Assembly (NCBI GenBank): GCA_009192285.1
Contig: CM018603.1
Location: 4,438,062 to 4,502,061, forward strand
Source of the DNA: Morchella semilibera
Taxonomy: Eukaryota; Ascomycota; Pezizomycetes; Pezizales; Morchellaceae
Direction: 5' to 3'
DNA: 64,000 bases
A program made the translations under genes and the position numbers. The notes beneath the pieces were generated by a model. It did not search any database. It had not been told where the DNA came from and saw nothing but the letters and a program-made list of their open reading frames with translations. Of the stretch, positions 41,430 through 63,095 are shown one piece after another (position 1 is the stretch's first letter; each line of letters opens with the position of its first letter).

Positions 41430-42319
41430 ATGAATACCTCAAACACCCAAAACAATAATGCCGATAACAATGGTGTTGGAAATTACGGTTATGTTACTCT
41501 ATCCCAATTCATGCAGGGTAGTAGTTATCTTGTGGACACTCAAAGGCTCGTCAAGTGGACTGAAGTGGAGTTTGCTGCCATCCTTGCTGGGTATAATACC
41601 GTTGGCGCTCATGAAGTGTAAGCATCCCCATTACGATACTCCGTTGATTACACTAACCCCCATACAGTGCCCCAGCTTATGAATGTGACTCTCCTGAAGT
41701 CACTGAATTTATCAACCGTCAAACTGAGAACTTGCGTCATTAGTAAGCCCTCCTCCACTTTCTAACCCTTTCTACTGATACCGCTTACTAACTATATATG
41801 ACTAGCAACTCTCTTGGCGTCAGAGCCCCTCGCATCGAGACTCTTCACTCAACGATGTCCGAAGACCTCGCCCGATACCGCTCCCTACGAGCCGAGCGTC
41901 GCCGAGATCTCGAGTACCTGGCCAGGACTGGTTTTGTCATCCATCTACCCCACGAACATCCCATCAACGATGATCGCAACCCAAACATCGCCCCTGAAGT
42001 CGCCACTGTGCGCTCCATCCTCTTTACCCATATCGAGAAGGTAGATGATATGATCGAAGTCCTTATCCCCGGTATGAAGATCATCGAGAAGGCAATCATG
42101 AAGGAGCTGAAATGCTGCTTGCAAGATGATCTTCGTGCTGTCTTCGTTTTGGCACCACTTAGGGAAATGTCAGCTGAAGAGGAGATCCATGCCCTTGGCA
42201 GATCTAGAAGCTTTGATTTGACCGGAATGAGAAATGAACGTCAGCTCGCGTATAGGAGCTGGAATGAGACATTCAGAACCCGTTTTGAGGGCCACTGCCC
42301 GAGGTGTGATAAGGTGTGA
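41430..42319 (+). CDS. Three-exon orphan protein, 258 aa
   Basis: Exons 41430-41617, 41668-41742 and 41806-42319 join in frame. Intron 1 (50 nt) and intron 2 (63 nt) both have donor GTAAGC, branch sites CACTAAC and TACTAAC, and CAG/TAG acceptors. The N-terminus is Asn-rich (residues 1-18), then a segment with FMQGSSYL and VKWTEVEFAAILAGY. The third exon is strongly helical, beginning with MSEDLARYRSLRAERRRDLE, whose MSEDLARYR partly fits the nine-residue array motif. A Leu/Ile-rich helix follows around IEVLIPGMKIIEKAIMKEL. The C-terminus ends in CPRCDKV, a lone CxxC. It sits at the start of the plus-strand array and may be a longer, intron-containing relative. Function unknown. Confidence 0.75.
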
Positions 42320-45026: not shown

Positions 45027-45431
45027 ATGAACTCCTCCGCCCCCGCCCCTGCAGGTACGAAGATGATCCTCGACCCCGCCCTCGTAGAGCAGGTCGCCTG
45101 GCACAAGTCCCAGATCCGCGCTCTCCTCAGAATCTACCACTACAGACAGTCACTCTCCTGTGTGGCCCTTACCAAGCTCTACTTTGGTGCCCTCGAGTCC
45201 CGCCAGCCGCCTATCGGCCTGCGCGGGAAGCTCACAACCAGGGAATGGCTCATTAGCTGTGTCATGTATTTCGAAGAGGATATGGAAAGGTGCCTCAGCC
45301 GTGCAAGGGATCTGGAGAATGCCTATAAAGACCTTTTGCTTGCCGCTGTGGAGAAATGGGAGGCGGAAGAGGCGGCAAAGCTGATGCAGGAAGGTCTGCA
45401 GGAAGAGTTGGATGGAGAGACAGAGGGATGA
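45027..45431 (+). CDS. Array protein 1, 134 aa, two-helix orphan family
   Basis: A single coding exon preceded by a candidate 70-nt 5' UTR intron. After a Ser/Ala/Pro leader, helix 1 contains the family motif IRALLRIYH (residues 30-38). A Pro/Gly linker (59-70) leads to helix 2 with VMYFEEDM (79-86), matching the second motif h-x-x-[LF]-E, and a long charged helix through residue 125. The C-terminus is acidic. There is no signal peptide or membrane segment, so an intracellular, perhaps self-associating protein is likely. Family unknown. Confidence 0.7.
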   Translation: MNSSAPAPAGTKMILDPALVEQVAWHKSQIRALLRIYHYRQSLSCVALTKLYFGALESRQPPIGLRGKLTTREWLISCVMYFEEDMERCLSRARDLENAYKDLLLAAVEKWEAEEAAKLMQEGLQEELDGETEG

Positions 45432-45720
45432 GAAGGATGGTTCGCGGTTGTGGCCTCTTCTGGTTCCGTTTGGATGGTTTAATATCGCAGTGGGGTTTTA
45501 ATAGGATCACTGTGGGTCTTTCACATGTTCTTTCTCATTTCTGGCTCGTGTGAATTTTTCTTTTCTTTTTTTTTCTTTCTTGTTTTCCCTCCCACCCGGA
45601 ACAACCTACAACCACATCCCCACAATCGAATGAAATCCCATAATTCCTGTCACCCAAAATCTTTTGATTAGGCGCAGATAAAGTCACCTAGACTCCACAT
45701 TCCTACAGAGAACTTCTAAC

Positions 45721-46060
45721 CATGTCTGGAATACAGCAAAGTCTGACCCCTCGCTTCCGCCGTGTCTTTCATCGACGGTCAAGATGCATACTGGGATCCA
45801 CGCCATTATACGAATCTACCACACTTATCATCGGTGCCAAAGTCTGATCTAGGGTGGAAGGCATTATCCAGGCCTGCGGCATGGTCCCGTCGACGGCGAA
45901 GGGTCGCTTCTTCTGTAGGAGGCGTGCCTTGTCGTGAGACGGAGAGGCACTATCATCGGTCCCATTGCCTAGGTGATGGTGGTAATAGGGAGAGGGAATA
46001 CCGTTGTATGTGTGTTGAGGAAGGCCAGGTTGCAGGAGCATGCCGTGGTCATGCATGATG
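45721..46060 (+). pseudogene. Possible degenerate array member
   Basis: ATG at 45721 follows CTAACC, as in array genes, and opens a short frame that ends at a TGA near 45844. Further on, GTIIGPIA, a stop and VMVVIG (about 45949-45990) resemble GTVAPIGPILGMMDVVLA of the gene at 49143. The frame is interrupted repeatedly, so this would be a dead copy. Resemblance is short and could be chance. Confidence 0.3.
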
Positions 46061-46565
46061 GGTGTGTGGGTTTAATCGAGCTAACTCGGGAGACTATGTT
46101 CATCGTTTTCTCCAATGAGAGGGATCAGTTGTGGAATCTTCCGACACGAGGACTGTTCTTTTTTTGCCGGTTGTGTAGACGCAAGATTTCGATACGGGTG
46201 TTATGGGTTTGTGAGACAGATAACAGTCTCTTCAAATTAGGAAGGGCACAAGTACTAATAGGCAGGTCCTCTATTCAACTGGATTCTCAGCTTAGCAGGA
46301 TGTGCTTTACCTCGCTGTGTCATGGTTCGTTTGTTTCTGGAGGCCTTTGGTTTTTTTTTTTGGCGAGCGTTGAATAAGCCTCTAACTTGAGCATGCTTTA
46401 TTAGGCACACGGACACGCAACCTCCATTCACCTCCATCCTCATCAATACACTGTCCCACCGCCGCCCCTCTTCATAGCCCCGCGGTACCTCATACAGGGA
46501 AGGCCACCAAAGCCAACCATCCTTGAACTGCGTCAGATCTATGGGAATTCTTCAATCTAGCGCGT

Positions 46566-46990
46566 GCTACATGGGGTAAGATTTACAAAAAGCTCTTTGG
46601 AGTTACTAAGATGAACCAGCCTTTGTCGGTCCTCACAGGTGCTAGCGCTGGCGCAACTGAGTCCTTCGTAGTTATGCCCTTCGAGCTTATCAATATCCAT
46701 CTTCAGGACAGGGCATCGGCGGGAAGGTCACTGGCATGATCGATGTGATTCAGAAAACCATCAAGGCCGAGTGTGTTTTAGCCATGTACAATGGGCTTGA
46801 GAGCGCAATGTGGAGACATGTTGTGTGGAACGCTGGTTACTTTGGTCTCATCTATCAGGTCAAATCCTTGCTGCCCAAGCAGGAAACCAAGAAGGGTCAG
46901 ATGCTGGACGGTCTTCTTGCTGGATCAATTGGTCGTACTTTCAGATGGAGGGACGGACACGTTGGTGTGGGGGGGGGGGTGCCGTGATCC
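46566..46990 (+). pseudogene. Fragment of mitochondrial 2-oxodicarboxylate carrier (ODC)
   Basis: Two frames together encode an internal part of a fungal 2-oxodicarboxylate carrier of the mitochondrial carrier family. Recognisable words are WGKIYKKLFG, LTGASAGATESFVV, MPFEL, AMYNGLES, MWRHVVWNAGYFG and LLAGSIG. The carrier signature after PFEL is degraded: residues normally basic read Asn and His. A one-base change near 46721-46724 shifts frame between the two halves. The 5' and 3' thirds are missing, and homology stops just before a G11 tract at 46969. The functional carrier exchanges 2-oxoadipate and 2-oxoglutarate across the inner membrane; this copy cannot. Confidence 0.85.
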
Positions 46991-47744
46991 TCGACACACG
47001 TTTTCGAGGGAAGTCGGCGTAATGGTGTAGAGGGGTCTTTTAATTTTGGGAGTTCACGCGCTGGATTCAGGGTTATATAGTTGATAGTATAGTAGTTCTA
47101 CAAGGGGTAGAAGAGGGTAGCAAATATAGAAATATGCTATTACATATCTTGCAAGATTTCGACGCTACTCCGGTTTGGGGTTAGGGTGCTTTTCTTTCCC
47201 TCCTTCTTGTTTCATTAGTTGCGTTGATCTTTTTGGCTATGTAAATACTTGTTAGGTGCTTTATAACGTGTCGATTCGGTGATAAAGAATTACAAGATAG
47301 TACCCTATATCGGTTCACACCACTAATCGGGGTGAAAGGTCCATGTTCAAACGGGTAATGTAATTTATAATGCATCTACAGTATTCTGTATGCATATAGA
47401 ATAGATGGATGGATTCATCCTTCTGGCAAAAAGCTACAAGTACAAAGGTTTATACTTTTGAAATTATAGGTAGTTACAATTAATCAGAACCACGAGCTAG
47501 TATGGAAAGCCACCAAGGGAGGTTCTTCCAGCCTCGATGGATGAATATATCGAAGAGCTGTTTGTTAATGTTATCATATTTCAAATTCACTTCCTTTGTT
47601 GCATGTAAAGTATCACTCACGTTGATACCGGCTCAAGGCGTTCCTGACAACGAAAAGCCACTCTAGTCCACCTGCCCTTGTTTCAGCTTCACTAACGGCA
47701 CGCCATACATATGCGTATGTAAATCCTGTTTCTCGAGTTTATGA

Positions 47745-47792
47745 CCTAGACAAACAGTCCCCTAGACAAACAGTCCCCTAGACAAACAGTCC
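47745..47792. repeat. 16-bp tandem repeat, three perfect copies
   Basis: CCTAGACAAACAGTCC occurs three times head to tail without a mismatch. Confidence 0.95.
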
Positions 47793-47975
47793 CGCACAAT
47801 GGACGGCACCGCCTTCCGCGCGCGCACACACGGCCGAAGGTGGCTCTAGGTCCACATCTACTACCTCTATGACCCGCCGCCCCCTCTCCGACATACCTCT
47901 ATCACTCTTTGCCCCAAGAAACCACAACCCCATATTTCCCCACACGTTACAAGAGACATCAAATTAAACTCGACG

Positions 47976-48033
47976 GTAGATCCTCCCATGGCCTCCCGTG
48001 CCCGCTCCCGCCCTGACTGATATGTGGTGACAG
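47976..48033 (+). other. Candidate 5' UTR intron of the gene at 48039
   Basis: Donor GTAGAT, CTGAC branch word and acceptor CAG bound a 58-nt interval ending 5 nt before the ATG. Confidence 0.4.
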
Positions 48034-48038
48034 ACAAG

Positions 48039-48341
48039 ATGAGCACCGCAAATGCAATTGCTACCTGCAAGCGTGGCATCCAAGACCACATGCAGCGCTA
48101 CCACGAGACTCGCGCCCTCGTCATCGAAATTGGCACCTGGCTTGCCGATGAGGAGCGTGGTGACCTCCCGAGGCTCAAGCGTGTGCTGATGTGGCTGGAG
48201 ATGGAGTTGGATTATGATCTCTGGTTGGCCTCCGAGCTCGAGAAGGAATGCAAGGATCTCGAGCTTGCTGAGAAGGAAATGGCTGAGCGTGAGAATAGCG
48301 CTGGGTCGGGATCTGCGGATGCTGGAGCCGCGGGGCAGTAG
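48039..48341 (+). CDS. Array protein 2, 100 aa, two-helix orphan family
   Basis: I take the ATG at 48039, the first in frame. The upstream frame has no ATG and contains the candidate splice acceptor. Helix 1 carries the motif IQDHMQRYH (residues 14-22) and runs to about 37. A short LP turn leads to helix 2 with VLMWLEMEL and a Glu/Lys-rich coiled-coil stretch to residue 84. The tail is Gly/Ala/Ser-rich. This is the shortest intact member and the cleanest example of the family: two antiparallel helices and little else. No signal peptide is present. Function unknown. Confidence 0.7.
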   Translation: MSTANAIATCKRGIQDHMQRYHETRALVIEIGTWLADEERGDLPRLKRVLMWLEMELDYDLWLASELEKECKDLELAEKEMAERENSAGSGSADAGAAGQ

Positions 48342-49142
48342 ATGCTGCCAAAGGTTAGAAATAAGGCCATGGAAAAGAATAGTAAAATAAAGCGCTCTTT
48401 GGTCTTTTTCACTGTTTTTTCTTTTTCTGTCTAGTTGGGTAGATTTCTTTCCTTTTGGGATTCATGGTTTTTGGATCAAGGCTGGATCAAGGCTGGTAGA
48501 ATGTGTTTGATGCAAGAGATCAAGGAGTGTTATGGTATGCGTGCTGCTGCACCACGGCTTCCAAAAGCCAACTTTCCCTCCCTGCCACGGACGAGAAAGT
48601 GTAGCATAGGTTTAGTTATGATTGATCATATCTTATGGCAGATGTGGAACCGTTGGACTGTGGCATCAACCCTTTAACCTCTCCGTCCGCAATAGTGGGC
48701 AGGTCGTAATGCAAGAGGAAGTAGAGGCAGTAACTGAAGGTGAAATAAATGACAGAAGCTTCCCCCATGTTAGCCGTAGAAAAATAAGAGCAAGAAGTGG
48801 TGGAACTTTCAATCAAGGAACTGAAAAAAAAAGGTTGATGCTGGATTAGATTAGATCGAACTTTTTGTGAGATACATGTACATGTTCCGAAAAGATATGC
48901 ATTTGCGTACAATGGTTTAGAAGAGACTAGAAAGAAATCCAGGGCGTAACCGGGAAACACCGTTCGGAGTAGAAAAGCCGTGTCTTTAATTTCGCGTCCT
49001 TTTCTTTCCATTTTTAGTCGGCCCAACCGCACTGCCCCGCTGTTTACGCTCAGACTAAGACAACCTAACGAACGACAACGTTGCTACTCCAGTACTTCGA
49101 CCGCGTATCTCCATCAAAATTACTCCCCCCTGAACGAAAGAA

Positions 49143-49496
49143 ATGACCATGGCCTCTCGCTTTATCCCCGGCTTCAAGCGCCTTACAAATGACGAGATCA
49201 CCACCGAGCTCGCCCGCCTCCAAGGCTACCTCCAGCAAAACCTCATCCAGTACTACCTCTGTCAAGGCCACATGGCCGTTGTCGCGGCCGGCGGAAACAC
49301 AACTACAGTCACTAGTCTCTACCAACTGCAGCGAGGAAATCGTCAAGGCACGGTCGCTCCCATCGGGCCCATATTGGGTATGATGGATGTGGTTCTTGCG
49401 AACAGGGCCCGTTTGTATGAAATCATCAGGGATTTACAAATGGAGCTAGTGGAGAGGGACGAGAGAGCGCAGAGCGAGGCGGGTGCGGTCCAATGA
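49143..49496 (+). CDS. Array protein 3, 117 aa, two-helix orphan family
   Basis: Two in-frame ATGs lie 6 nt apart, the second in the better context (ACCATGG). Helix 1 contains LQQNLIQYY (residues 30-38), which fits the family motif with Leu first and Tyr last. The linker is unusually long and rich in Gly, Thr and Gln (49-75). Helix 2 runs from MMDVVLANRARLYEII to the end. A possible dead copy lies at 45721-46060. There is no signal peptide. No clear 5' UTR intron is seen, unlike most neighbours. Confidence 0.65.
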   Translation: MTMASRFIPGFKRLTNDEITTELARLQGYLQQNLIQYYLCQGHMAVVAAGGNTTTVTSLYQLQRGNRQGTVAPIGPILGMMDVVLANRARLYEIIRDLQMELVERDERAQSEAGAVQ

Positions 49497-49950
49497 TTGG
49501 GTAGATCTGGCTTGTATCTTCGAGAATATATAGCCTCAAGAATGATAATTGGGCTGTATCGTGGGAAATAAATTTCGGTGGTGGGAGTGTTTAACTCAGC
49601 GAGAACTGTGATCTTACGTGAAGCTATACAGGAGGTAAAATTAAGTGAATACGCTTATCCTGAGTACCAGGCTCAGTCCTAACCTAGGTCCCGGGGAAGT
49701 ATTAACTCACAAGCAGACAACAATGCCGTGAGGTTACTATAGTGCTATCTCTTCCTCAATCGCATCGGTACCTCCATCCTACCCCTAAGTACAGGGGGGG
49801 GGGGTAGTGCGGGAGAGAGGAGGCGCAAGAAGGGTTATGCATATAGGTACCATATAATTATTTACCCTACGAAACCAAAAAAAAAAGAGCAACAAAAGAC
49901 TTACGCCCCCACCCGGGGCAGCTTTCCTAGAATTTACGAGGGGGTTAGTG

Positions 49951-50016
49951 GGGGGGTTGAACCTGAGCGGTGTCGATCAGAGTGTGAACTCTATACCGCT
50001 CAGGCAACAACCCCCG
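49951..50016. repeat. Three-tier imperfect palindrome (hairpin), 66 bp
   Basis: Nested inverted arms pair in order: GGGGGTTG (49952-49959) with CAACCCCC (50008-50015), CCTGAGCGGT (49962-49971) with ACCGCTCAGG (49995-50004), and AGAGT (49979-49983) with ACTCT (49988-49992), around a GTGA loop. All 23 arm pairs are Watson-Crick. On the minus strand, words resembling tRNA box A (GCCTGAGCGG) and box B (GGTTCAACCC) sit in the two arms, so a tRNA-derived origin is possible, but a cloverleaf does not form. Confidence 0.85.
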
Positions 50017-51262
50017 GTGACAACAACCACGATTTTTACGTTCTTGGCCGCGTAATGACGCTAGCTTGGCGACGCTGCCCCCTCCCTTCCACGCAGGCAG
50101 GAAACCACCCCGTCGCTACAATGTGAGTAGCATTGAACTCTTGGGGTGTCCCAAACCTATGAGATTATCCAACTGAAAGACCCAGGAGATGAGGTTTATC
50201 GCTCGGTTTCGTGACGGCTAATTTCCTTTCCGCTTTTCTCTATCTCCCTCAACCGCGAAGGTCAGTTCTTCATGCATTGTAAATCTGCACCTGATCCACG
50301 CACCGTTTTCTCCCGGCCAGCAAAGCACACCTAAAGCCTCGAATTCAATTTCATGAAAAAAAGGCAAGAACTTACCATAGCAAATATCATTCCTACATTC
50401 CTAGTTAAACCCCATACCCAGGCCAGTTCCCCTCGCCTTGGCACCGCCCATACCTGTATTCCTCCTGACTATCCCTCGTCGCCGTCCACCCACTCTTGAC
50501 AAACGGCGAATGGCAATCATACACCCGGTAACCAGCGCCCTCTACTAGTTGGGTACTTTTTCGGTATACTTGGTATCCCAAAGCCACTAGGCCCACTGTA
50601 GTTCCAAAATGGTGTTTTATTTTCATTCCAAGCAGCTACCAACTTTCGGCGCCCAGGACAACACCTCACGGCTTCCTCGGGCCCTACCTGTGAAATAGGT
50701 ACAAATTCGTCTTTCTCCCCGCAAAACTACGTGCGGTCTTTAGTGAAGTCAACCCTAACCCCGCAGCTTCCTGATCCGGGCTTTCGTTAGTCGCCAAGGT
50801 TCAAGCCTTGGCACTGCCGAGCTGGCCCTTGAAGGGAAGGTACCCAATCCCGGTCTCTGTGCGACGTTTGTACAAGAAACGGGCGATGTGGTAGGTTTGT
50901 AGCTTCTACACTAGGGGATACTAGTGGAGAAGACAAAAAAAGATCCGGGTAAGGCTGGGAGAGTAGCGTGGTATGTGTTGTGAGCAAGAGCACCAACTCT
51001 CTGGCTGCCCCACTTCTGGTCTCGTGGAAATATCTTAGTGCAAGCCAAGAATATAGGGGAAAGCGGTGGATTTCAAACCAGTCGTTCTCTTTCTACGCGA
51101 TTGTTATTCCTGGCTACCTCCTGGAACCTAAAGTCTTTGATCCCCGCACCGCAAAAGCACCACTGTCCTCGACACCCGGTATCAGGCAACAAACAAATTT
51201 CACATCACACGCATACTTCATATACCTTCCTCACTCATAAAGTAGCGCCCTATCATTGCATA

Positions 51263-51757
51263 ATGTACGCAAGCCCCCCTAGCATCATTACGTTTGGCAT
51301 ACCTAACATACACAGGACGGACCCAATGGACATGTATCCCACCGTTGAAGAGGTCGAAGGGGACATCCTAGAGTGCAAGAACGCAATCAGGCACTTCATG
51401 GCCACGTTTAACAGGAACTATGCCCGTTCGATGTTCGTCAGGCTTGAACTTGCAAAGCCGCTCATGAGTCGTACCCTGCCGGACGTGTTGGAACGGATGT
51501 GGCTTTATGAGGATCTTGAGCGCATGGGGACTATGATGGAGGAGAGTCTTGAGGATGCTGCCATGGTGCATAATTATGTGAAGGAACAGGAGGCGCTCCT
51601 TCAGGCACTGATTGAAGAAGAGATGGAGGAGGGGGAGGGAGAGGAGGAGGAGGGGGAGGAGGAGGAGGAGGAGGAGGAGGATGCAGAGGGGGAGGAGAAG
51701 GGTGGGGAGGTGGAGGGGGAGGTGGAGGGGGAGGACGAAAAAGATGGCGGCGCGTGA
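51263..51757 (+). CDS. Array protein 4, 164 aa, with acidic tail
   Basis: ATG at 51263 is the first in frame near the conserved region; the upstream open frame is random-looking. Helix 1 has IRHFMATFN (residues 42-50), matching the family motif with Phe-Asn in place of Tyr-His. Helix 2 begins at a LPDVL turn (72-76) with MWLYEDLERM. From about residue 118 the last 45 residues are almost only Glu, Gly and Asp, encoded by a GAG/GGA-rich low-complexity tract. The acidic tail could bind basic partners such as histones or ribosomal proteins, which is inference only. No signal peptide is present. Confidence 0.65.
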   Translation: MYASPPSIITFGIPNIHRTDPMDMYPTVEEVEGDILECKNAIRHFMATFNRNYARSMFVRLELAKPLMSRTLPDVLERMWLYEDLERMGTMMEESLEDAAMVHNYVKEQEALLQALIEEEMEEGEGEEEEGEEEEEEEEDAEGEEKGGEVEGEVEGEDEKDGGA

Positions 51758-53950
51758 AGTATAGGTTCTGTACATGTGGTTGTTAAAGGATGGTTGCTCG
51801 GAAAGAGGGACTCCGTTTAACCATCCTACAGATCTTAGAAAAATGCTTCTCTCACAGTTCTACGAGCAGCTTCAATGACTCGGAGCAGGCCATCATTATG
51901 TCATACGCCCTATTCGCTAGTTCTATCAATCAAACACCATCTTCTCAAATCTCAAAAAACGTTTCTTCATTTAGAGAGAGAAAGTAACCGGAAGTATCAT
52001 GTATTGGCTGGAGACACGCACTTGAGGGAACTTCCAGTTGGGGCGATTTCGGGTGTTGATAATTTTTGTCTTCGTGCGCCTAGGCACTTTCGATCTCAAG
52101 CCTTGGAAACAATATTCTCCTACCAAAGAAGTTCCCAAGCTAAACTCTTCAGGACCGCCGGTGGTTGCGGAGGTAAGCCGCCCATACCGGATTTTTGATC
52201 CAACTAGTAGGGTTCATGATGAGGATCCACCGAGGCCCTCCTCGCACCCCCCCCCCCCACCCACGCGTTTCGGCCAGTATCAGTGCCTCTCTCACTCCTT
52301 GTCCACTCCACTATGGAGCTGATTCTTTTATTAACAGCCTCTCCTCCTTCCTCGCGAGGCTCTTTCCGGGCTAAATTTTTCTTTGCTCCACTCCCCTTTC
52401 TCAACTTCCCCCTCTCATTGCGTTCGGTGTATCCTTTCTTAGCCTTATTAATTTTGATGTCGTTTCCATTTCTCTGATGGTTATTATCATCCCCCATGTT
52501 CAGCTTCAGTGGTGTCCTTTCTATTTGCAAAGTCCTAGCCGGTCAAGGTATGTTCTAGAGAAGAACCATCTCCTACAATTCTTACTGCCCACTTTGTAGC
52601 GAGATAAATTTAGTCATTCGTTAGGGTAGGAAAATTCACCAGTACTGTATGTGTAGTGTAGTTCTGCTCCGGTAGTCAATGTATTAGACAAAAACAAACT
52701 AACTATCCAGTGAAACTCGATATATTTTATTACAATCCGGACAAGATAGTCCGAATTTCCTTTTATTTTGTTCAGCCATGACGAGTAAGAAAAGGAACGA
52801 CGATTTATTTACGCCTAATCTCACCCAACCACTCGGTCGTGGCTTTACTGATGAGGGGAGGGGGGGATGTCGAAACGTGGTGTGCACTCGGTGACCCATC
52901 GATCACCAGAGGATTACATGCAAATAGGGGTATTGGCCGGTTGGTATGGGCGTTTGGGTTCTTTTTGTGACCAGGGACTGAGGGAATGAGTCTATTGATC
53001 AATTCTTTTCTACTGCCTTGAAGTGACTACTTCCCTATATCGCAAATATTTAGTGGGACACTAAACATCTCTAAGCAATAGTAGAGGAAATAGATAATCG
53101 AAACCTCCATACAGAGATCGTTCTGTGTTCAGGAATTTCGGCGCAGCTTGTCCTTGTCAAGTCAAAATGGGTATTTCTTTGGTTTCCAACACTCTAGATA
53201 TATACATGTGCTGTATCACACATTTATCACTCGATGGGGGTTGGGATAACAAGGGGCGGATCGCTAGAGTCAGATAATACGGACCTCTAGAGAAAAAAAA
53301 AACAGAACCACAGGCAAGTTGTGTATCGATTCCATTAGACACCAGTGGTAGTAGGTGCTCGACATTGCCTCCCAGGTAAAGGGGCTTACCCATCAGCTTT
53401 GTTTATCCTTCTTTGCGTATCGGAAGGTAGGTTCCTTATTTAGATTCGCCCCCCCGACCCGAGATATGGTTTCTTTTGTTTTTTTATCTGGTGGTTGTTT
53501 TCTTTATACGGATCTATGTTCTTTCGTCCATTTATTTATAAAGATAGGGGCTTTACCCATAGACCGAATGATCAATTAGCTACTGCTTTTGGTAAGCATA
53601 TTAACTATCAAGGAAGTCCAAATCCCAATATATATCAGTAGGTATTATACTATCATCCTCTAAATCACAGAGATAAACAAATCCACAGATTGACACCTGG
53701 AGCGTTCCTATAGACAATATTCCATTACAATGATTTTGTGCGGCATCTACCTCGCGAAGGACGCATACACACCATGAGCCTCATCGCACACCTTTATAGA
53801 TCCCGGGAAGGACTACGCTTAATTTCTTTCTGAACATGGGATAGTGTACACGTACCCCCCTTAACCTACATCCAGGGCTCCTTCATCCATCTCCCACCGT
53901 TTGATAATAACATACCCAACGCCTAGACAATTACATCTTTCATCCCCACT
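51758..53950. other. No supported gene
   Basis: It holds a C12 tract at 52247-52258 and the plus-strand half of an inverted dispersed repeat (53484-53600). Reading frames lack domains. Confidence 0.4.
53484..53600 (+). repeat. Dispersed repeat, plus-strand copy
   Basis: About 117 bp resemble the reverse complement of 56699-56820. Shared words include TATCTGGTG, TTTTCTTT, TACGGA, AGGGGCTTTACCCATAG and ATCAATT. Similarity may extend further left to about 53440. The family is unknown. Confidence 0.65.
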
Positions 53951-54003
53951 GTAAGTTCCTACCCGCACCAGCTCCTCCACCTCTCACTAACAACCATAAT
54001 CAG
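53951..54003 (+). other. Candidate 5' UTR intron of the gene at 54009
   Basis: Canonical donor GTAAGT, branch CACTAAC and acceptor CAG bound 53 nt, ending 5 nt before the ATG. This is the best-supported case of the shared feature. Confidence 0.65.
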
Positions 54004-54008
54004 TGCCA

Positions 54009-54353
54009 ATGAGCGTCCCAACCACTTCCATCGCGAGCACACCCAGCGCCGACATCATCGCCGCACATACCGCCCACATCAACCGCCTCATGCGCGACTA
54101 CAACCAGGTGCACTCCGTCGTGGTCGCGAACAAGATCCTGCTTGCAGACCCTGACTACAGCCCGACGTTTCAGACGCGTGACGGAAGTTTTGTGATGCAG
54201 CCTGACGGTCGTGAGGCACTTTTGGCGTTCATCAAGGTCCTAGAGGGCAGGATGGCGGAGTATCTTCAGATGGCGAGGGAATGGGCGTGGAGGAGGGCAG
54301 ACTTGATCTTGGCTGGAGAGGGGGAGGGGGGTGTGGAGGATCTGGATGGGTAG
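54009..54353 (+). CDS. Array protein 5, 114 aa, two-helix orphan family
   Basis: The leader is Ser/Thr/Pro-rich (residues 1-13). Helix 1 contains INRLMRDYN (24-32), an exact fit to the family motif. A linker of about 20 residues includes a predicted strand-like FQTRDGSFVMQ. Helix 2 starts at REALLAFIKVLEGRM, where IKVLE matches the second motif, and runs to about 101. The C-terminus is Gly/Glu-rich. A canonical 53-nt intron ends just before the ATG. There is no signal peptide. Function unknown. Confidence 0.75.
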   Translation: MSVPTTSIASTPSADIIAAHTAHINRLMRDYNQVHSVVVANKILLADPDYSPTFQTRDGSFVMQPDGREALLAFIKVLEGRMAEYLQMAREWAWRRADLILAGEGEGGVEDLDG

Positions 54354-55545
54354 TAGAGAGCTGGGTTGTTATGGTGGAACCAGCCTGTATGATGTACATT
54401 CGGGCTGGCATTTCTATCTATCTTTTCTTTTCCCATTTAAAAGATATATATCTTGAAGCAATGATATGTTCTACGTGCCCACTCGTGCTGCTAGGTATGT
54501 GGGGTGAGATGGGAAGGGAAAGAAAAAGGGATTGATTAAAAACATAGCTCCTCACTATTACAGCGTTTGTTCGTTCCGCTATGCTCGCGATAGGATCAAT
54601 ATCGGAACAAACCCAATCGGGGGTCTCAGGTTTTCGGAATCTTTCTGGCTCTGTATGCCTGTGTTTAGGTTGAGGGCTGGGGGTAAGTATAGGATACCCT
54701 GTAGAGCCTACGGTACCATCATGGGGGGTTGTTTTGTAGCAGCACTGAACATTGCAGGCCCCTCAACGGAGTTATAGAAATACCTACTATTTATTGCGTC
54801 TTGGCTGGCTATGAACACTCATGAGAGCTGAACGATTTATATCAGCACGTTTCTAATACCTCTCTATAAAAGTGTCAGGTACGGCAATAACGCGGGATAC
54901 CCGCAGGCCACCATGAACCACTCAGATTCCCAAAGGGAAAGGCCGTCATGACCAGAATAATTACCTTAATTGAATAACATCCTGGCAGAGTCCCCCCACT
55001 GCCCCTCCAATATGAAACCCCTTTCGTTCTCCCCCTCTATAAATATTCCCCTACTGTCAGTAAAACAAAAGGAGATAGAGTTTTCTCGACATGGAAGGCG
55101 ATATCTCCCGACCTCAGATTGTTTGTTTTACTACGGGTGCATTGTTCGCATACGAAATATTGAAATATGAAGAAAATGGCCCCGCTGCCCTTCTATAGAC
55201 CCACAGTAGGTGTCCCAGGTTTATGCCAAGCCCCGAGTGATTGCCTGTGAACGTGCCTATACACACCGAAAACAAACGCGTGTCACTTAAGCGAGGTTCC
55301 CTCTACACCAAACAACCTAAAGATCCTAACAAGAACCATAACTAGCAATCACCTGCCCACCAGCAGTATCGTTAAGAATCCACCATGACATGTGAGTCTC
55401 CCCTACCACAACTGTAGAACATGTCTCCCGTCGATACTGACAGAAGCCTCGCTCCCTACCAGCCAACGGAACGAACCTCGCGCCCCTCGCACCACCCACA
55501 CTCCCCGAATTCCAGCGTCTGCTTGCCTCCTGCCGTGCGAACGCT

Positions 55546-55875
55546 ATGAACCACCTCGCGGACAACACCCGCAGAATCAATAGAGGCTTCTGCCGAAGCA
55601 TCCGCCGCCTCATGAATCGCATTCGCGACAACCAGGGGCGCCTCATTATCATCCGCGTCCAGCTCGCAGAGGCCGAGTTTGTGAGGCTCATCAATCGCAG
55701 AGGAGACCGGCAGGGACCAACCAGGAGGCGGCTGAGGGAGATTATTCGTCAGCTGGAATCCAGGATCGGCGCTGATCTGGTGGTGGCTGCGCAGTTGGAT
55801 AGAGGTTGGAGGGATGGGATGCAGGCTGAAGCAGAGTTGAGGCGGAGAATGGCACTTGTGGCATTGAATATCTGA
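55546..55875 (+). CDS. Array protein 6, at least 109 aa, Arg-rich
   Basis: The first ATG in frame is 55546, but the same frame is open back to about 55444 with protein-like content (NGTNLAPLAPPTLPEF, then QRLLASC). Another ATG at 55421 (MSPVDTD) lies in a different frame just upstream. Either a one-base shift or a missed splice may have removed the true start. Helix 1 has IRRLMNRIR (19-27), fitting the motif except that Ile replaces Tyr. Helix 2 has IIRQLESRI (66-74). The protein is much more Arg-rich than its neighbours, with over twenty arginines. No signal peptide is present. Confidence 0.6.
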   Translation: MNHLADNTRRINRGFCRSIRRLMNRIRDNQGRLIIIRVQLAEAEFVRLINRRGDRQGPTRRRLREIIRQLESRIGADLVVAAQLDRGWRDGMQAEAELRRRMALVALNI

Positions 55876-56698
55876 GCGCGGACACAAGGGGGTGGTGGCA
55901 GAACGCTTCCAGACGGACCCTTTGTTCATAGCCTCATGAATTCAACCACATCTCTATAACCATTTGTGCACTGAAAGGAGGGCTACAGAAGAGCTCCTCA
56001 TCAGGATCTTACCCTGTACTGTAGTGCTAGTGGCACCCAGCCGTCAATAAAGAATCTGTGTTTCCTCCGGCCATCTTCTCGTGAAGAAACGAAACTGTTC
56101 CTGGGATGTTGTTCATTTCCCCACAAGGAGTCATTACCAAAAGATTCTCAATTTACCTCCCTCATCCAGGGTACCTCCATGCCCTAGTGAAAGCTCCAGT
56201 AGGGAACAGGTGGAACCTTTTGATCAGGATCACCGCGGTGCCTGCCTGGGTGGTCGGGTCTTAAGGTGTTTAATGCAGTTACGTCGAGGGCGTATGATAG
56301 TTAGTTGAGGGAATAGCTCGGGGGTGAAGGATATGTGAAGTAGACCGGGGGTTCCACTGTGAGGGAGTGCAGGAGGTGTACGAGATTTTTTCTGAGGATC
56401 ATGATCAAGGATAATGTTGTGAGGGATAGTTATATGCTACTGGCGTTATTCCAGTGTGGAATCCGGCATGGGCGTATATCTGAACCGCCTTTAGGCCTCG
56501 GTGGGTGGGTTCTCTATTCCATGTGGATCTCTTAATTGTTTAGGCGTGGTGAAAATCTCTCAATAACCCCTTCCCTCATCTCTGAAAAGGTTCGAGCTCA
56601 GTATCGGACTCTCTCTTTCCTTCCCCCCCTTGGCGCGAACTACCTGCTCGAAACAGGTATTATATGATTGATATTGGGATTTCGATCTGCTTAATAGG

Positions 56699-56820
56699 TA
56701 ATGATTACTAAAAACAGTAGTGAATTGATTATTCGCCCTATGGGTAAAGCCCCTAATTTTATCGATAAATAGATTAAATAAACAAAATTGGTCCGTACAA
56801 AGAAAATAATCACCAGATAC
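56699..56820 (-). repeat. Dispersed repeat, minus-strand copy
   Basis: This is the inverted counterpart of 53484-53600, with roughly 75-80 percent apparent identity by eye and small indels. It ends about 175 bp before the broken array gene at 56995. Confidence 0.65.
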
Positions 56821-56994
56821 AGGAAGCAGGGGGAATCATCTCTCTAATCGGGAAGATGGATCCAAATAAGAATTATCTGGAACCCCTACCTATAGTATCC
56901 AGACACACCACATTCCCCCACTACCGGGGGCAATGTGCTCTCCATCCCTATCTCACCTCGTCTCAATACAACCCCCTTTTCTAACCATTGCAGC

Positions 56995-57300
56995 ATGGCA
57001 TCTTTGTGGGATGATGCCCGTCTCGCGGCACAGATACACCTTCAGCTCATCATGATCACGGCAATGACCAGGCGCTACAACGGGGTGCTTTGCCGGATGG
57101 CCATTACTCAGGCGGAGCTCGACGCTACGCCGTGTAATAGGATCCGCGAGAGAAATGTTCTCTGGGTTAATCTCTAGTATCAGCGCTGCTGCTCGGGGTA
57201 GCTTCTCCGGCTAGGGATGTATTACGATCGGAACTGGAAGGATTTGTTGGAGATACAAAAGGGGAGGGAGGCGAATGCGAGGCCCAGGATCCAGATTGTG
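56995..57300 (+). pseudogene. Broken array member with two in-frame stops
   Basis: The ATG in good context follows a branch/acceptor-like TCTAACCATTGCAG. Residues 21-29 read ITAMTRRYN, fitting the family motif. The frame stops at TAG (57175) and again at TAG (57199). The same frame then continues with a second-helix-like MYYDRNWKDLLEIQKGREAN. Both halves being in one frame indicates two nonsense changes in an otherwise unshifted gene. An intron removing both stops has no good splice sites. Confidence 0.6.
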
Positions 57301-57650
57301 GTTCATAGTGGGGTGTTAAAGCCTATATGTCGCTATGTGTCTGTTCATAGGTCGGTGGCGCTTATGGAGAGAATGAAACGAAATAACAAAACCCCCCTTG
57401 CAGGTCAAGAGGCCTTCTATGATATGCTTTACATGCCTCATGGAACCTTAGTAATAAATGGACTGTATTCTTTTTGATTCTCTTAGCCGCCACCAAATCT
57501 CCTTTTAGAAGGCTAGGGAATATGGAAGGACGACCAAGCCGCTCGACACTTCCCTTTTCTTTACATCCCATGCACCCGCTGTTGTAAAGAACAGATTCCC
57601 TCCTGACAACTAACCAACACAAAAAAAAAACCCTCTTATTTTCGACGAAA

Positions 57651-58031
57651 ATGTACCCCCCCCCTCTTTATTCCACCGTATCAATGCAAGCACTCAATAC
57701 TGACATGCCTAGGCAGCGACAATCTCCTGATCAATTCGACACCTTTCTCGCCACTGGGATTCAACGTTCGAGGGATCGGATTCGCAGCTCCATGGTCTCC
57801 TATGCGAAGCACCACTTCGGGTTCACCATGACTCATGCCCGGCTGCAGTCCACCGCTATGAACAAGACGTCCGAACGCGGAAGGATGTTTGAAATCCTTG
57901 ACTTTCATCGCATCTCAATGGGGAGTCATTTGTCCGTCGCTAAGAGAGAGGATTATAGCTTGAAGCAGCTTTTGTCGATCCAGATCCAAAGGGAAGATGA
58001 AGCCGCGGGCATGGGAGGTGTCGGTCTTTAG
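57651..58031 (+). CDS. Array protein 7, 126 aa, two-helix orphan family
   Basis: ATG follows an A-rich UTR. The leader is Pro/Tyr/Gln-rich (residues 1-27). Helix 1 contains IRSSMVSYA (44-52), matching the family motif except for Ala at the end, and stays basic. The linker is short (around 68-72). Helix 2 begins MFEILDFHRISMGSHL and a third short helix with LKQLLSIQIQRED follows. The end is Gly-rich. It starts 350 bp after the broken copy at 56995. No clear upstream intron and no signal peptide are seen. Confidence 0.6.
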   Translation: MYPPPLYSTVSMQALNTDMPRQRQSPDQFDTFLATGIQRSRDRIRSSMVSYAKHHFGFTMTHARLQSTAMNKTSERGRMFEILDFHRISMGSHLSVAKREDYSLKQLLSIQIQREDEAAGMGGVGL

Positions 58032-59365
58032 GTTTCCCCGGGCGGTCCGGAGTTTCCGCCTGCTGAGGGCTTGTGGGGCTTTGGGGCTTTAGGTCTATAG
58101 TTATAACAAGACAATGAAAGCTTTCTCAGGGATTAAACATGCTCTAGTTTATGGGTGATTTCCACAACTTAGTCCGCTGCATGTCGTCTTGTGGTGTAGT
58201 CGGTATGTGTTTCAGTGCTCGTTCTTTTAACCCATGGCCGGCAAACATCCCTTTCCGAAGGCATAATAGCAACACCTGTCCAATTCAGTACACACATGCT
58301 CGTAGAGTAGCAAAAACAATAATCCCATTACCAACTATTCTTGGGTATATAGCTGAATCATGCACCATTGCTCCCTAACTCCGACCTTCGTTTCTCGTGC
58401 CCCACCTTAGAGCATTGTTTACTTTTGGACGCACTAACGGCCAGCATGCTATTGCCAGGGTTCTAAGATAAACGAGTCCTAATCTGCAAGAAATCAAATA
58501 TGACTTTCCTTCCGTAATCAGATATTTCTCTCTTTATTTTCTTCATTTCCTTTTACAGGTATTCTTCCATTATCACCCTCTTCGTTAAATGTTTATTCAT
58601 TCTCTTGTTCCTTTTCTATAAAATAGGACTGCATCCACTTTGGATGATCAGATCACTACATGTATTATCCCTTTTCAAAGGTGTCTCTACCTATTCAGTA
58701 TTGCCCGTTTCCTAAAATAGCACTAATGGCCATGAGTAGCGGGCTGGAACCTTCATTTCCGGCTTCTGTGCTGTTTAAGCACCTGCGTTTTTTGTGGGAA
58801 AAGAGAATCTCATTTCGATCATCGGCCCATCTCAGACCCGGATTACAGTTGGCGGTTGGAATAGGGCCTTTGATTGGACGCATTATAGGGGAATGCCAAA
58901 CCCATCCACCAAACACACGGTCAAGCAACCAAGCCCGCAGCGGCGCAAACGCGCTAAAGGAACCAATGCGTTTGAAGCCCACCATAGGGTCTCATGCAGG
59001 GACTCTGGCTGTGGTTCCAACTGGTCACGGGGAAGGGTCGGTAGTTGGGGCTGGATGGTTCGATGCCACTCCCTCTGTTACCCCCGTAAAGGAAACCGTT
59101 TTTGTTTGCCAGTGATGGTTGCTACGTCCTGGAGCTGAATAATTGAGAATAGATTTTAGGGAGCACGATGTCAGCTAAAAGAAGGGAGCGGTAAGGACAC
59201 TTAGCGGAACGCATAGACCAATATGCCACCCGGCAGGACCCCCCATAGGACACAATACGCTAGTAGTAGAGTATTTTATGTTGGGTTATTATTGGTTCCT
59301 TTAAGACCCACCAACCTTTAGGGCAAGTAATAGGCCTGAACAAATTTCCCTTCATCAATCAAAAG
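58032..59365. other. No supported gene
   Basis: A 151-codon ATG frame (58660-59115) overlaps another of 114 codons in a second frame. Neither has a domain or the array motif, so neither is annotated. Confidence 0.35.
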
Positions 59366-59425
59366 GTAAGGGTCCCCCACCCCCACCAGGCCGCCGAGGA
59401 TACAATCACCACTAACACTCATAAG
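59366..59425 (+). other. Candidate 5' UTR intron of the gene at 59426
   Basis: Donor GTAAGG, branch CACTAAC and acceptor AAG bound 60 nt that end directly at the ATG. Confidence 0.55.
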
Positions 59426-59758
59426 ATGTCTGAAGAGGTACCGTCATACAGTAGACACGAGCTGTATACGTTAAAATTCCAAATCCTCTCGCTACTCGAT
59501 GAGTGCGGGTCCCACCACCAGAAGCTCGAGAGCGAAGCCATGGGTATCCAGTCATTACTGAATGGTGATCATAGCCGGCTGCCTGCAGATGTGCGGGATC
59601 TATACGAGAGGAGCATCTGGGCTTGCATTAACGGGTTGGCGGCAAGTACTGCTTATATGGCCCAACTTATAGAGGAGCTGGTTGAGACAGGGAAGGCGAT
59701 TGATGTAACATTAGGAGTGAGGGTGGGGGAACCAAGGGTCGTTCTTTTTCAAAGATGA
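59426..59758 (+). CDS. Array protein 8, 110 aa, two-helix orphan family
   Basis: ATG begins immediately after a candidate 60-nt intron. There is almost no leader. Helix 1 carries ILSLLDECG (residues 20-28), a weaker fit with Cys-Gly in place of Tyr-His, and extends over GSHHQKLESEAMGIQSLL. An LPADV turn opens helix 2 (DLYERSIWACINGLAAS) and a further helix, AQLIEELVETGKAI. The protein is acidic overall. No signal peptide is present. Function unknown. Confidence 0.65.
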   Translation: MSEEVPSYSRHELYTLKFQILSLLDECGSHHQKLESEAMGIQSLLNGDHSRLPADVRDLYERSIWACINGLAASTAYMAQLIEELVETGKAIDVTLGVRVGEPRVVLFQR

Positions 59759-60291
59759 TATGTGTAGTATATCTCTTCTGTGGTTCTACGAGGAGCTTCC
59801 TGCGACTGTGGATCTGACGGTAGTCCTGGCAGATTCATGCTGCAAATAGGATATCGAGTTACTTGCAAGGTCCTAATATACCGACCTATTTGTAAAATTG
59901 GTATTCCGGTTCAAGTAGGTCATAAAATTCGGTTGCCTGGCAGAGTATTTCAATGGTATCTATGATATAGCTGTTGTAACGCACGCTAGCTGTGATCAGC
60001 CTGTACTATTTTAGCTACAGAAATTGTTGGAAACATTGCCGTCCACACTTCATTGAAAGGTTCTGCATTTTTTCTACCTGAACTACCACCTCATGGGCCC
60101 AAGGCTGATACTAACTTTCCACCACCCGCCGGGTAACAGAGCTTACACACGTAACAGGACATTATAGCCTTACCAATACTTCCCAATTTTGCCCACTGCA
60201 GTTCCCTCTCTCCTTCTGCGAAGTAATCCTAGACAAACCAACACCATCATAACCTTCCATCAAGAAATTCTTTCCCTCGGTAGAAACCTAA

Positions 60292-60340
60292 GTATACCCA
60301 TCCCACCATATTATTAGAAGCTAGCACTAACCACCACAAG
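60292..60340 (+). other. Candidate 5' UTR intron of the broken gene at 60342
   Basis: Donor GTATAC, branch CACTAAC and acceptor AAG bound 49 nt, ending 1 nt before the ATG. Confidence 0.4.
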
Positions 60341-60341
60341 A

Positions 60342-60848
60342 ATGAGCCGCCCCTCTAGCCCAAACCATCACCAGATGATACTTGACATCGGATTCTACTA
60401 AATGAGCGCCAAAGATGCCATGAGGATCTACCACGGGCTTCAATGCGAGGTGGTTCTCCTCCATGGTATGCTATCTCACCTCGATAGCTCTGGCACAGAT
60501 TCTCTTAGCCAAGGGGGATCTGTTGATGATCAAGAGGAGGTCGCTGTAGACAGCGAGAGTTGTCTACCAGACGAGCAGAGAAATGTTACCGACGGAGGGA
60601 AAAGCGGGAAGGATGTCAAGGACTCCGAAAAAAAGTAGTCGTTTCACAATGAGATTGATAGGATGAAGGGCTTGATGGAATTTTATCATAGAACTACGGC
60701 GCAGGAGGATAGGATGTGCAAAGATTTTGAGTTGTGGCTCTTGGAGGGGGCGAAGCGCATCGCGGAGGCGCCCGGTTTGAGCCTGGGAGAGGGGTTGGTG
60801 CCGAATGATGGCTGGTTGGCCATCTTTCGAGGCTCCTATATATATTAA
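60342..60848 (+). pseudogene. Array member interrupted by two in-frame stops
   Basis: From ATG 60342 a single frame of 169 codons runs to 60848 but is cut by TAA at codon 20 (60399) and TAG at codon 99 (60636). Between them residues read AKDAMRIYHGL, where AKDAMRIYH fits the family motif. After the second stop comes a helix with MKGLMEFYHRTTAQEDRM and LWLLEGAKRIAEA. Because no shift of frame separates the three parts, the changes are recent nonsense mutations. An ATG directly follows the first stop (60402), so a shorter product is conceivable. Confidence 0.6.
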
Positions 60849-61603
60849 GTGGAGTAAGATATTACGCGTTGCAAAAGGGTGCGAAGTTGAGACCGTTGTG
60901 ATGCAAAATCTTTACCATAGATTATACCCTGAGTTTAATTTTTACACACTGGCCATCTTTTTCAGTGATACCGGAGTTCTTAGTATCATATGGGCATTAA
61001 AGGTATTAACGTGATGAGAAGTCCATAAAAATATTAATGTGATGTCCTTCCTATGGAATTTAAGTAGGCAGGTATCTCACATATAAAATGGCATAATCAA
61101 GCGCTTCTCGCTGCTAGCCCCTACGGTTGTCGATAAGGTCTCCTTAAACGCCCCATCCAGCCATCTCACACAATAGACACCGCACAGGCTGAAGGGTGAA
61201 TGGTATGCGGGGGTACAAGCAAGGAGGCCGGGCCTTGTAGTAGGAGCCTACGGAGACCTGATCACGCCAGTTTGAAGTGGACAGAGTGCAATTGTCTACT
61301 TTCGATTCTGTAGTAGGTCCTATTGTTTCATTGACAAGGAGGATTATGCCCTGCTTTAGTTAGATGGGAGGAAAGCCTGGAATTGCTGCATGTATGAGTT
61401 ATCGTTGATAATAAAATAAAAACTTCATCTCGCAATAATAGTCTTAAATTAAAACCACGTGACCGAGTGATTTGTCATGCTCGGTCCCACCTGGAAGAAC
61501 CTATCACTACACAAACAACTAGCTGGTTCCCGACATCTCCACCCCCCCCCCCCACCAAGACAAATCACTTTGGCGGCTTCATATAACGGGTCCTAAAGCA
61601 TTA

Positions 61604-61661
61604 GTAGATATTCCCAATACTCCTACCACCAAAAGCGATACTAACCATGTGGCCCCTGCAG
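61604..61661 (+). other. Candidate 5' UTR intron of the gene at 61664
   Basis: Donor GTAGAT, branch ACTAAC and acceptor CAG bound 58 nt, ending 2 nt before the ATG. Confidence 0.4.
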
Positions 61662-61663
61662 AT

Positions 61664-62170
61664 ATGTCTATCCCCACCACCCCAGCTACAGAGTGCCCCG
61701 CGCCCGGCACCAGCGAATACTTTATTAAAAAGCACCGCTTCTTGCTTAAATCTTATCATGAGTGGCAATGCTTGCTCATGGATGCCTCTGCCACCATAAA
61801 TGATAGTTTCCCTCCCGACGGTGACCCTAGCCCGACACCACTAGATATACTTAAGGAGCAGCTGAATGTCAAATTTCACTATGCCCGCAGTACCGAGAGA
61901 AAGATGCGGGTGCTTTTGCCTGCTGATCCCCGAGCTATCGATCCTAAGGATCAGAATCTTGAGATATTACTCTTCCTGAGGTGGTACGGGGGGTGGATGC
62001 GTATGCTTGACGATGCGGCGGAGGAGCTGGAAAGGGTTGCGCCAATGGAGCTGGAGGGGAATGTGGGGCAAATGAAGAGAGAGGTGGAAAGGGCGCGGTC
62101 TTTTGTAGGCATTGTGGAGAAAGAGCTCAAGGAGGTGTTGCTGGAGAATGAGGGCGGGGTTGGGGTATGA
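61664..62170 (+). CDS. Array protein 9, 168 aa, longest intact member
   Basis: The start is the ATG at 61664, 2 nt after a candidate acceptor; an out-of-frame ATG at 61647 lies within the proposed intron. The Pro/Thr leader (residues 1-16) is followed by helix 1 with HRFLLKSYH (24-32), which fits the family motif with His first. A Pro/Asp-rich linker (about 48-62) leads to helix 2 from LDILKEQLNVKFHY. The protein then continues with two more helices, around LLFLRWYGGWMRMLDDAAEE and VGQMKREVERARSFVGIVEK, so it seems to contain an extra helical pair. A Glu-rich end follows. No signal peptide is present. Confidence 0.7.
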   Translation: MSIPTTPATECPAPGTSEYFIKKHRFLLKSYHEWQCLLMDASATINDSFPPDGDPSPTPLDILKEQLNVKFHYARSTERKMRVLLPADPRAIDPKDQNLEILLFLRWYGGWMRMLDDAAEELERVAPMELEGNVGQMKREVERARSFVGIVEKELKEVLLENEGGVGV

Positions 62171-62855
62171 GCGATGGCTGTAGACCGCGGTCGAGGTTAG
62201 GATATGGGACACTTTGCGTTGTTCTTGGTTAGCCATTTGGAGGGTGTGCTAAAGGAAGTTTGTTCTCACTATGGTTCCGGAAAGCCCATGTTTCTTTTTG
62301 CCGTTCAACAGATTGAGGCATTTATCGCAAGCGCTTAAGGAGAGCTAATACAAGATTTACACTTATGTTGCTGTCCAAGATTAGTGAGGTATAAGAAGAG
62401 AATGTTCCTGTATAACCAGGAGCGTATGGTTGGGGGCCTTGGTGGTTGCTGTTCGCAAGGCTCAGAATTCGCCGTTCCACAGGCGCCGGGTTGTGGGGTT
62501 AGGGCTAGAATCAAGGGCCAAGCGCAAGGTTGCACGAATTCATAGGCGCAGGGATACTTGGAGCACTTGCTCCCTCATCCACATCGCCCAACCCCCGATC
62601 CCCAACCCCCCCCCCCGGATTTCACATCCCACAACCAGCCCCCAAGGCTAACTGTCGCCGTGGATCTATCCTACCATTGATGCTATGTACGTTAACCCAC
62701 CCCTAAGTCGCCTTTAACCCACTCACCAACACCCTGCAGGACAGATCTACGCGCACGCACAGGCACCACCTTCGCAGCTACACCTACTTCTGAGGAGCCC
62801 CAATCGTGCTTCATGCATGTGATCTTCCGCTACTGTAGGTGTCAAGCCCGCCCCG
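62171..62855. other. No supported gene; C11 tract
   Basis: It contains a C-run at 62606-62616 and no convincing frame. An acceptor-like CTCACCAACACCCTGCAG (62723-62740) precedes the broken gene downstream. Confidence 0.35.
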
Positions 62856-63095
62856 ATGATCCACGCATACTTCAATTGTCTGAGTAAACAAGCCGAGATT
62901 GATGCCCTTCACCTCGTTTAGATCACGGATTCATAGGGCATGAAAGTTCTTCCTACTGCAATGCGTATGGATCGGCGGCCCCGTTTAGACAAGATATTGC
63001 AAGCGGTTAAGTTGCAGAGGAGGTGGGAGAGACAAGGGGATCTGAAAGATATGACATTAGATCTCATATGGAGAATAGCTGTCAGGGGAAAATGA
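62856..63095 (+). pseudogene. Possible broken array member
   Basis: A frame from ATG 62856 reads MIHAYFNCLSKQAEIDALHL, then TAG (62919) and TAG (62934), then continues in the same frame with a basic helix (RLDKILQAVKLQRRW) and KDMTLDLIWRI to a stop at 63095. Two helical halves with charged composition, separated by short stop-interrupted DNA, mirror the broken copies at 56995 and 60342. The family motif is only partly present (HAYFN). Confidence 0.35.

Follow-up and report, generated by a model that had tools for sequence, protein, structure and literature searches.

The wtf genes of Schizosaccharomyces pombe evolve fast, are concentrated on chromosome 3 and have transposons near them; most possess five or six exons and predicted transmembrane domains, and gene conversion among them is pervasive (PMC6526906). 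In Morchella importuna, vegetative incompatibility is widespread, het homologues show no polymorphism between groups, and additional genes, so far unknown, have been inferred (PMC8940278). The incompatibility candidates mapped in this species encode proteins of 765-773 and 1,311-1,324 amino acids (aa) (PMC8940278). In Pyronema confluens (Pezizomycetes), more than 20% of the orphan genes are upregulated in sexual development (PMC3778014). A pattern of clustered, fast-changing genes often marks self-recognition or genetic conflict. Here we analyse a stretch of 64,000 nucleotides of Morchella semilibera (the window; positions 4438062-4502061 of contig CM018603.1, here C1), in which an initial annotation had described an array of small, strongly diverged two-helix proteins. 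We show that the array is real and larger than stated, and we interpret it as part of a birth-and-death gene family of small two-helix hairpins in one chromosomal region.

A first profile hidden Markov model was built from seven window genes and compared with 2,305 six-frame open reading frames (ORFs) from 264 kb around the window. Seven ORFs unseen by the profile scored E < 0.01 (best 5.5e-12) as compared to 0.41 for the best reversed ORF; the family is therefore more than chance. Iteration of the profile raised the number of ORFs at E < 0.01 to 25. In leave-one-out profiles, all 23 members outscored every non-member; the search covered 2,768 ORFs, the 42 frames listed as members or candidates not being counted among the non-members, and the best reversed ORF reached 0.36. 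Two members came near noise, namely 49143 (Table 1) and 123078 (0.038 vs 0.052). Twelve further genes at E < 0.04, with no non-member better, bring the family to 35 genes. Weaker candidates are 61664 (Table 1), 80508 (0.22), C1:5115659 (0.28) and C1:4985911 (0.72), and 59426 failed (230). The shared family proposed initially, against which a lack of profile similarity would speak, is borne out by mutual profile matches, and these demonstrate, at the level of sequence, common ancestry of the hairpin family members.

The family extends beyond the 18-kb array on one strand that was described initially. In window coordinates, which we also use beyond the window, the supported genes are on the plus strand at 45-77 kb (11 of 11) and on the minus strand at 102-139 kb (13 of 13). 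Every supported member inside the window is thus on the plus strand, as claimed; beyond it the claim fails, two more plus-strand members at 74.7 and 76.1 kb being followed by a minus-strand arm that begins 38 kb past the window's right end. A profile of this right arm ranked plus-strand array frames first to thirteenth of 1,641 ORFs, ten of them at E < 0.03, with the best non-member at 1.4 and the best reversed ORF at 0.53. It is not a fully independent test, since its members were recruited by the left-arm profile. The converse test was weaker: the left-arm profile ranked nine right-arm frames first among 663 ORFs right of 90 kb (best reversed ORF 0.18).

We searched a single genome (56,756,124 bases, 23 contigs; C1 comprises 7,341,407 bases). 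Of the 23 matches listed in the whole-genome consensus search, 20 are in C1:4.48-4.58 Mb, the others being C1:4982129 (E 0.30), C3 (0.46) and C23 (2.5). C1:4982129 is a family member, and with the first profile the surrounding 28 kb show five members at E <= 0.0023, adjoined by two weaker frames. Three further stretches of C1 each contained members. Later genome queries, one of them a hand blend of two consensus sequences, gave matches on C1 at 4.48-5.12 Mb only among the best candidates scored. No convincing member outside this region was found among the best candidates of the genome searches, each of which scored only 4 to 25, so that remote members elsewhere could escape. Members reach C1:5.12 Mb, which puts the family at 35 genes or more in some 0.64 Mb; a family at a single locus is ruled out by members 0.4-0.55 Mb away. 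The count of 35 is probably an underestimate because, of the interval at 4.60-5.12 Mb (roughly 520 kb), some 50 kb were read, mostly at chosen spots. No frame was counted as a member in the 100 kb left of the window (partly masked), in the window's first 45 kb or in 24 kb of scattered control DNA. Seven of nine non-training matches lie in 1.1% of the genome, a generous figure, since the match at 4971 kb was known beforehand and the frame at 4503552 has only 43 aa; five of seven remain after both are dropped.

Inside the window, all nine helix-1 words quoted in the initial annotation are found, seven in complete frames (45027, 48039, 49143, 51263, 54009, 57651, 61664) and two in interrupted ones (ITAMTRRYN at about 56995-57177, AKDAMRIYH at 60402-60638). 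Nine complete plus-strand frames agree with the nine intact genes that had been counted. Profiles support seven of them, that is 55546 and the complete frames just named except the marginal 61664, at leave-one-out E 8.9e-14 to 0.051 and with no non-member better; 59426 is the other frame lacking support. Two of the at least three broken genes proposed are supported (56995; 60402/60639), and a frame ending at 63095 is absent among the matches listed. The spacing of about 1.4 kb has to be corrected to a mean of 1.85 kb from start to start (ten starts including 61664, range 0.66-3.0 kb).

Table 1. Members and candidates of the hairpin family and of a second family inside the window (window coordinates).
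Feature	Position	Strand	Support
Hairpin member, 134 aa	45027..45431	+	Leave-one-out E 6.7e-11; AlphaFold two-helix model
Hairpin member, 100 aa	48039..48341	+	Leave-one-out E 5.4e-8
Hairpin member, 117 aa, weakest of seven	49143..49496	+	Leave-one-out E 0.051; best non-member in run 0.087
Hairpin member, 164 aa, long acidic tail	51263..51757	+	Leave-one-out E 4e-7
Hairpin member, 114 aa	54009..54353	+	Leave-one-out E 1.3e-10
Hairpin member, 109 aa, pI 11.9	55546..55875	+	Leave-one-out E 8.9e-14
Broken member, helix 1 kept, frame stops before helix 2	56995..57177	+	E 0.0013, no non-member better
Hairpin member, 126 aa	57651..58031	+	Leave-one-out E 8.9e-7
Broken member, in-frame stop between helix-1 and helix-2 pieces	60402..60848	+	Pieces searched separately, E 0.0065 / 0.0023
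Marginal candidate, 168 aa	61664..62170	+	E 0.45, two non-members better
Second family, 264 aa	25295..26089	+	E 2.9e-5, profile of three others
Second family, 241 aa	28327..29052	+	One other genome match, C1:4712702, E 0.0475; phmmer 1.7e-4
Second family, 202 aa	29500..30108	+	E 2.4e-11, profile without 29500

Between members 45027 and 48039, two frames at 46527-46987 match fragments of a mitochondrial carrier (PF00153; E 2e-7 and 2.2e-4, the latter just below the cut-off), apparently a broken copy of a carrier gene. An inverted repeat pair (53485-53637 and 56665-56819; about 75-80% complementary, about 3.1 kb apart) brackets members 54009 and 55546 and may represent a degenerate mobile element or the ends of one.

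The consensus of helix 1 reads I-R-x-x-M-x-x-Y-N ... L-V-x-A-R-x-x-L-x-x-[ST]-G-Y and that of helix 2 E-I-x-x-L-x-x-x-M ... A-x-x-L-x-R-x-x-K-D-L-x-L-x-E-x-E. A helical hairpin common to all members had been anticipated. For 45027, AlphaFold (with six other window members) predicts helices at residues 17-53 and 71-133, with a mean predicted local distance difference test score of 81.9 and a predicted template modelling score of 0.64; the model suggests that this member folds as a two-helix hairpin, and it is for this member alone that the hairpin was modelled. The hydrophobicity of helix 2 has its periodicity peak at 100 degrees, as in an amphipathic helix. Some family members carry acidic tails, and the isoelectric points (pI) of the nine window proteins, including 59426 and 61664, range from 4.1 to 11.9. 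By simple hydropathy, none of the nine shows a membrane-like stretch (maximum over 19 residues 1.29) or a signal-like N-terminus, a feature of secreted effectors (maximum 1.34). An intracellular location of these proteins is only suggested. The hairpin is contained in one open frame, but the genes may have additional exons. The right-arm frames 109011, 116657 and 138538 have no in-frame ATG upstream of the domain, so these three may be truncated or begin in an earlier exon.

Library comparisons gave no significant relative. No Pfam family reached the cut-off in ten window proteins (best 0.026) or in 14 members (best 0.013), NCBIfam and PDB sequences yielded nothing significant (best 0.023, and 0.18 and 0.51, respectively), and PHROGs nothing convincing (best 0.0028, for one of 14 members). 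Foldseek found no match of the 45027 model at E <= 0.001 in PDB or among viral models, and a viral scan and a prokaryote scan, each made with a single protein, returned no match. A search for a promoter or 3' motif common to the members gave no word, among those listed, with a count above the shuffle maximum. Among the titles and abstract openings listed in searches of open-licence PMC papers, none pointed to a description of the family.

Extreme divergence and broken copies are characteristic of the family. On a tree of the 25 of 28 members that were kept after column filtering, the median length of the end branches is 1.28 changes per column; 1 of 22 inner branches is well supported and the bootstrap is unsettled. 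Labels for arm or block nevertheless cluster on it (6 changes vs a shuffled mean of 12.2, with 0 of 200 shuffles as low), and for the same 25 members sequence distance correlates with the logarithm of genomic distance (Mantel r 0.29, 1 of 2,000 permutations). No DNA-level similarity joins two members in a self-BLASTN of the 264 kb (E <= 1e-8, at least 80 bases, pairs touching 40-145 kb). The closest pair, the adjacent C1:4980352 and 4981991 outside the array, has 53% protein identity. At least five of the 35 genes are broken or partial copies, and about 30 keep an open hairpin frame.

Three copies of one long terminal repeat (LTR) element are present within and between the two arms, outside the window (65902-73305, 90815-98289 and 128357-135833). 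The copies are 93-95% identical to each other and the LTRs within each copy 99.5-100% identical; these are therefore recent insertions into the gene cluster. A fourth LTR element in the cluster has an LTR identity of 99.3%. Read by eye, the elements are Ty3/gypsy (the three copies) and Ty1/copia. Inside the window, two minus-strand frames at 37450-38887 are linked by BLAST to retrotransposon frames; in one of them the integrase family PF00665 falls narrowly short of its Pfam cut-off (E 2.5e-7), and in the other Pfam finds nothing. The mating-type locus was also considered. The MAT1-1 forward primer (PMC7014384) matches the genome once, at C22:2,196,845, and this falls inside the MAT range given for Morchella crassipes M10M26 in that article (2,185,575-2,216,748), though the scaffold number differs (08). 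Since the sole primer match is on C22, the cluster on C1 is not at MAT and this candidate was rejected. A Pfam search for MAT-alpha gave no information on this point, as its controls also stayed silent.

The window holds three genes of a second hyper-diverged family (Table 1), to which 84726 (window coordinate) and C1:4712702 also belong. Single-sequence searches showed no relations among these larger orphans, and 25295 searched alone had no other genome match; relations emerged once C1:4712702 was found, which is 21% identical to 28327 over most of its length and its only other genome match among the candidates scored. Together the two find 29500 (0.0022) and 84726 (0.012), as compared to 0.3 for the best reversed sequence. 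Three-member profiles recover the left-out 84726 (4.6e-8) and 29500 (2.4e-11) as well as 25295 (2.9e-5 and 0.0039), the best reversed ORFs being at 0.84 and 2.6. The three window proteins have no Pfam match at 0.05. Proteins of this family appear by eye to be helix-rich; no similarity between them and the hairpins was detected. Other orphans, for which neither a Pfam match nor a relative within the 264 kb was detected, are the plus-strand single frames 12537-13133, 31611-32291 and 41798-42319. On the minus strand, the frame 20446-21213 contains a short acidic repeat (KDELEVKDELEV...) and matches no family above the cut-off. A diverged copy (40%) of its neighbour 20449-20823 lies to the left of the window, at a distance of 77 kb. 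Also left of the window, an ankyrin-repeat frame adjoins a DUF676 esterase frame (L021:343-1921), an arrangement which may resemble that of fungal NLR-type genes.

Regarding function, our best guess, a tentative one, is intracellular self/non-self recognition, because divergence is extreme, the products look intracellular and known het homologues leave the widespread incompatibility of M. importuna unexplained. The hairpins would act inside the cell and pair via amphipathic helix faces into homo- or hetero-oligomers; such oligomerisation may be read from their sequences. Turnover of sequence outside the core would alter which hairpins pair, and a mismatch (or match) between the products of two fused mycelia or nuclei would trigger or block a response. 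The outcome would be self/non-self recognition like vegetative incompatibility in morels. In a wider version, which we regard as a long shot, C1 4.46-5.12 Mb would be a morel recognition complex of at least two mutually dissimilar hyper-diverged families that supplies the missing non-self genes via combinatorial hairpin pairing.

It is also possible, if somewhat doubtful, that the region is a relaxed nursery, rich in transposons and possibly low in recombination, where helical duplicates drift with hairpin geometry as sole constraint and share no single function. The ratio of nonsynonymous to synonymous changes (dN/dS) of one pair, which does not differ from 1, the broken or partial copies and the four LTR elements inside the cluster all suit such drift. 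Drift alone, however, should not preserve open hairpin frames in about 30 of 35 genes at the branch lengths observed, and the core pattern is common to both arms.

A role in meiotic or sexual conflict, as killer and suppressor or as sex-expressed genes, wtf-like in action and unrelated by descent, is unlikely. Clustering on one chromosome near transposons recalls the wtf genes (PMC6526906), and sex-induced orphan genes occur in Pyronema (PMC3778014); the nine window proteins, however, have no transmembrane stretch, and the array of 24 members lacks the DNA-level similarity that recent gene conversion would give. Still less probable is parasite restriction, in which intracellular hairpins would bind proteins of mycoviruses or retrotransposons and would diversify through an arms race. 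Fast divergence and clustering suit an arms race, and the best non-members in leave-one-out runs are two frames which by eye belong to a LINE-like element (E 0.094 and 0.4); yet these two align weakly and over short stretches (i-Evalue 0.28 and 4.1), and nothing convincing came from PHROGs, from viral structures or from the viral scan with one protein. A compositional artefact, in which unrelated helical ORFs score alike through richness in Leu, Arg and Glu, is very improbable and was rejected: pairwise BLAST at 1e-3 within the 264 kb joins only two groups of members (five and three frames) and the left-to-right profile test places two non-member frames above some right-arm members, but the leave-one-out test contradicts it, reversed sequences of the same composition never fell below 0.18, the scattered control DNA (24 kb, 239 ORFs) gave nothing below 0.99 and new matches are largely confined to one region.

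Several observations weigh against a single family of recognition hairpins. The thirteenth frame of the right-arm profile (76013, E 1.1) is worse than the best reversed ORF; with the left-arm profile, two non-members (0.15, 0.65) outrank or tie 123078 (0.31), 109011 (0.65) and 127382 (1.0), and 102337 is not among the best 25 matches right of 90 kb. One LINE-like frame, not counted as a member, reached 0.019 in the iterated profile. The periodicity peak of helix 1 is at 155, not 100, degrees. For C1:4980352/4981991, the sole pair computed, dN/dS is 0.73 (bootstrap 0.45-1.13), and it is 0.85 over the 25 codons upstream of the assumed start; the former value indicates fast evolution but is proof of neither positive selection nor constraint. 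HET and NACHT are domain names of known incompatibility proteins. A candidate recognition role is what the hairpins have in common with het genes; they differ in that no known signalling or incompatibility domain was found in the hairpins scanned, and the two candidates mapped in M. importuna are large and unlike the hairpins (PMC8940278).

Ordinary homology search fails on members so diverged, and they look like unrelated orphans until a local profile is built. Should other morels show the same pattern, part of the fungal orphan-gene load would consist of old, clustered, fast families and not of newly born genes. Work on morel incompatibility, whose genetics is unsolved, or on an unknown drive system would then have a compact region to aim at.

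Among known structures, prefoldin, the seryl-tRNA synthetase arm and ESCRT-III CHMP1B have the two-helix outline in common with the hairpins (Foldseek), at 8-19% identity and with a likeness in shape only. Like the wtf genes, the hairpin family evolves fast on one chromosome with transposons close by; in contrast to them, the array members share no DNA similarity and the proteins seem to be soluble. The morel hairpin itself is encoded in a single open frame, to which further exons may be joined. The Pyronema orphans are a genome-wide class defined by expression, and the accessible part of PMC3778014 mentions no clustered hairpin family; what they share with the morel hairpins is that they are short proteins without homologues, also from the Pezizomycetes.

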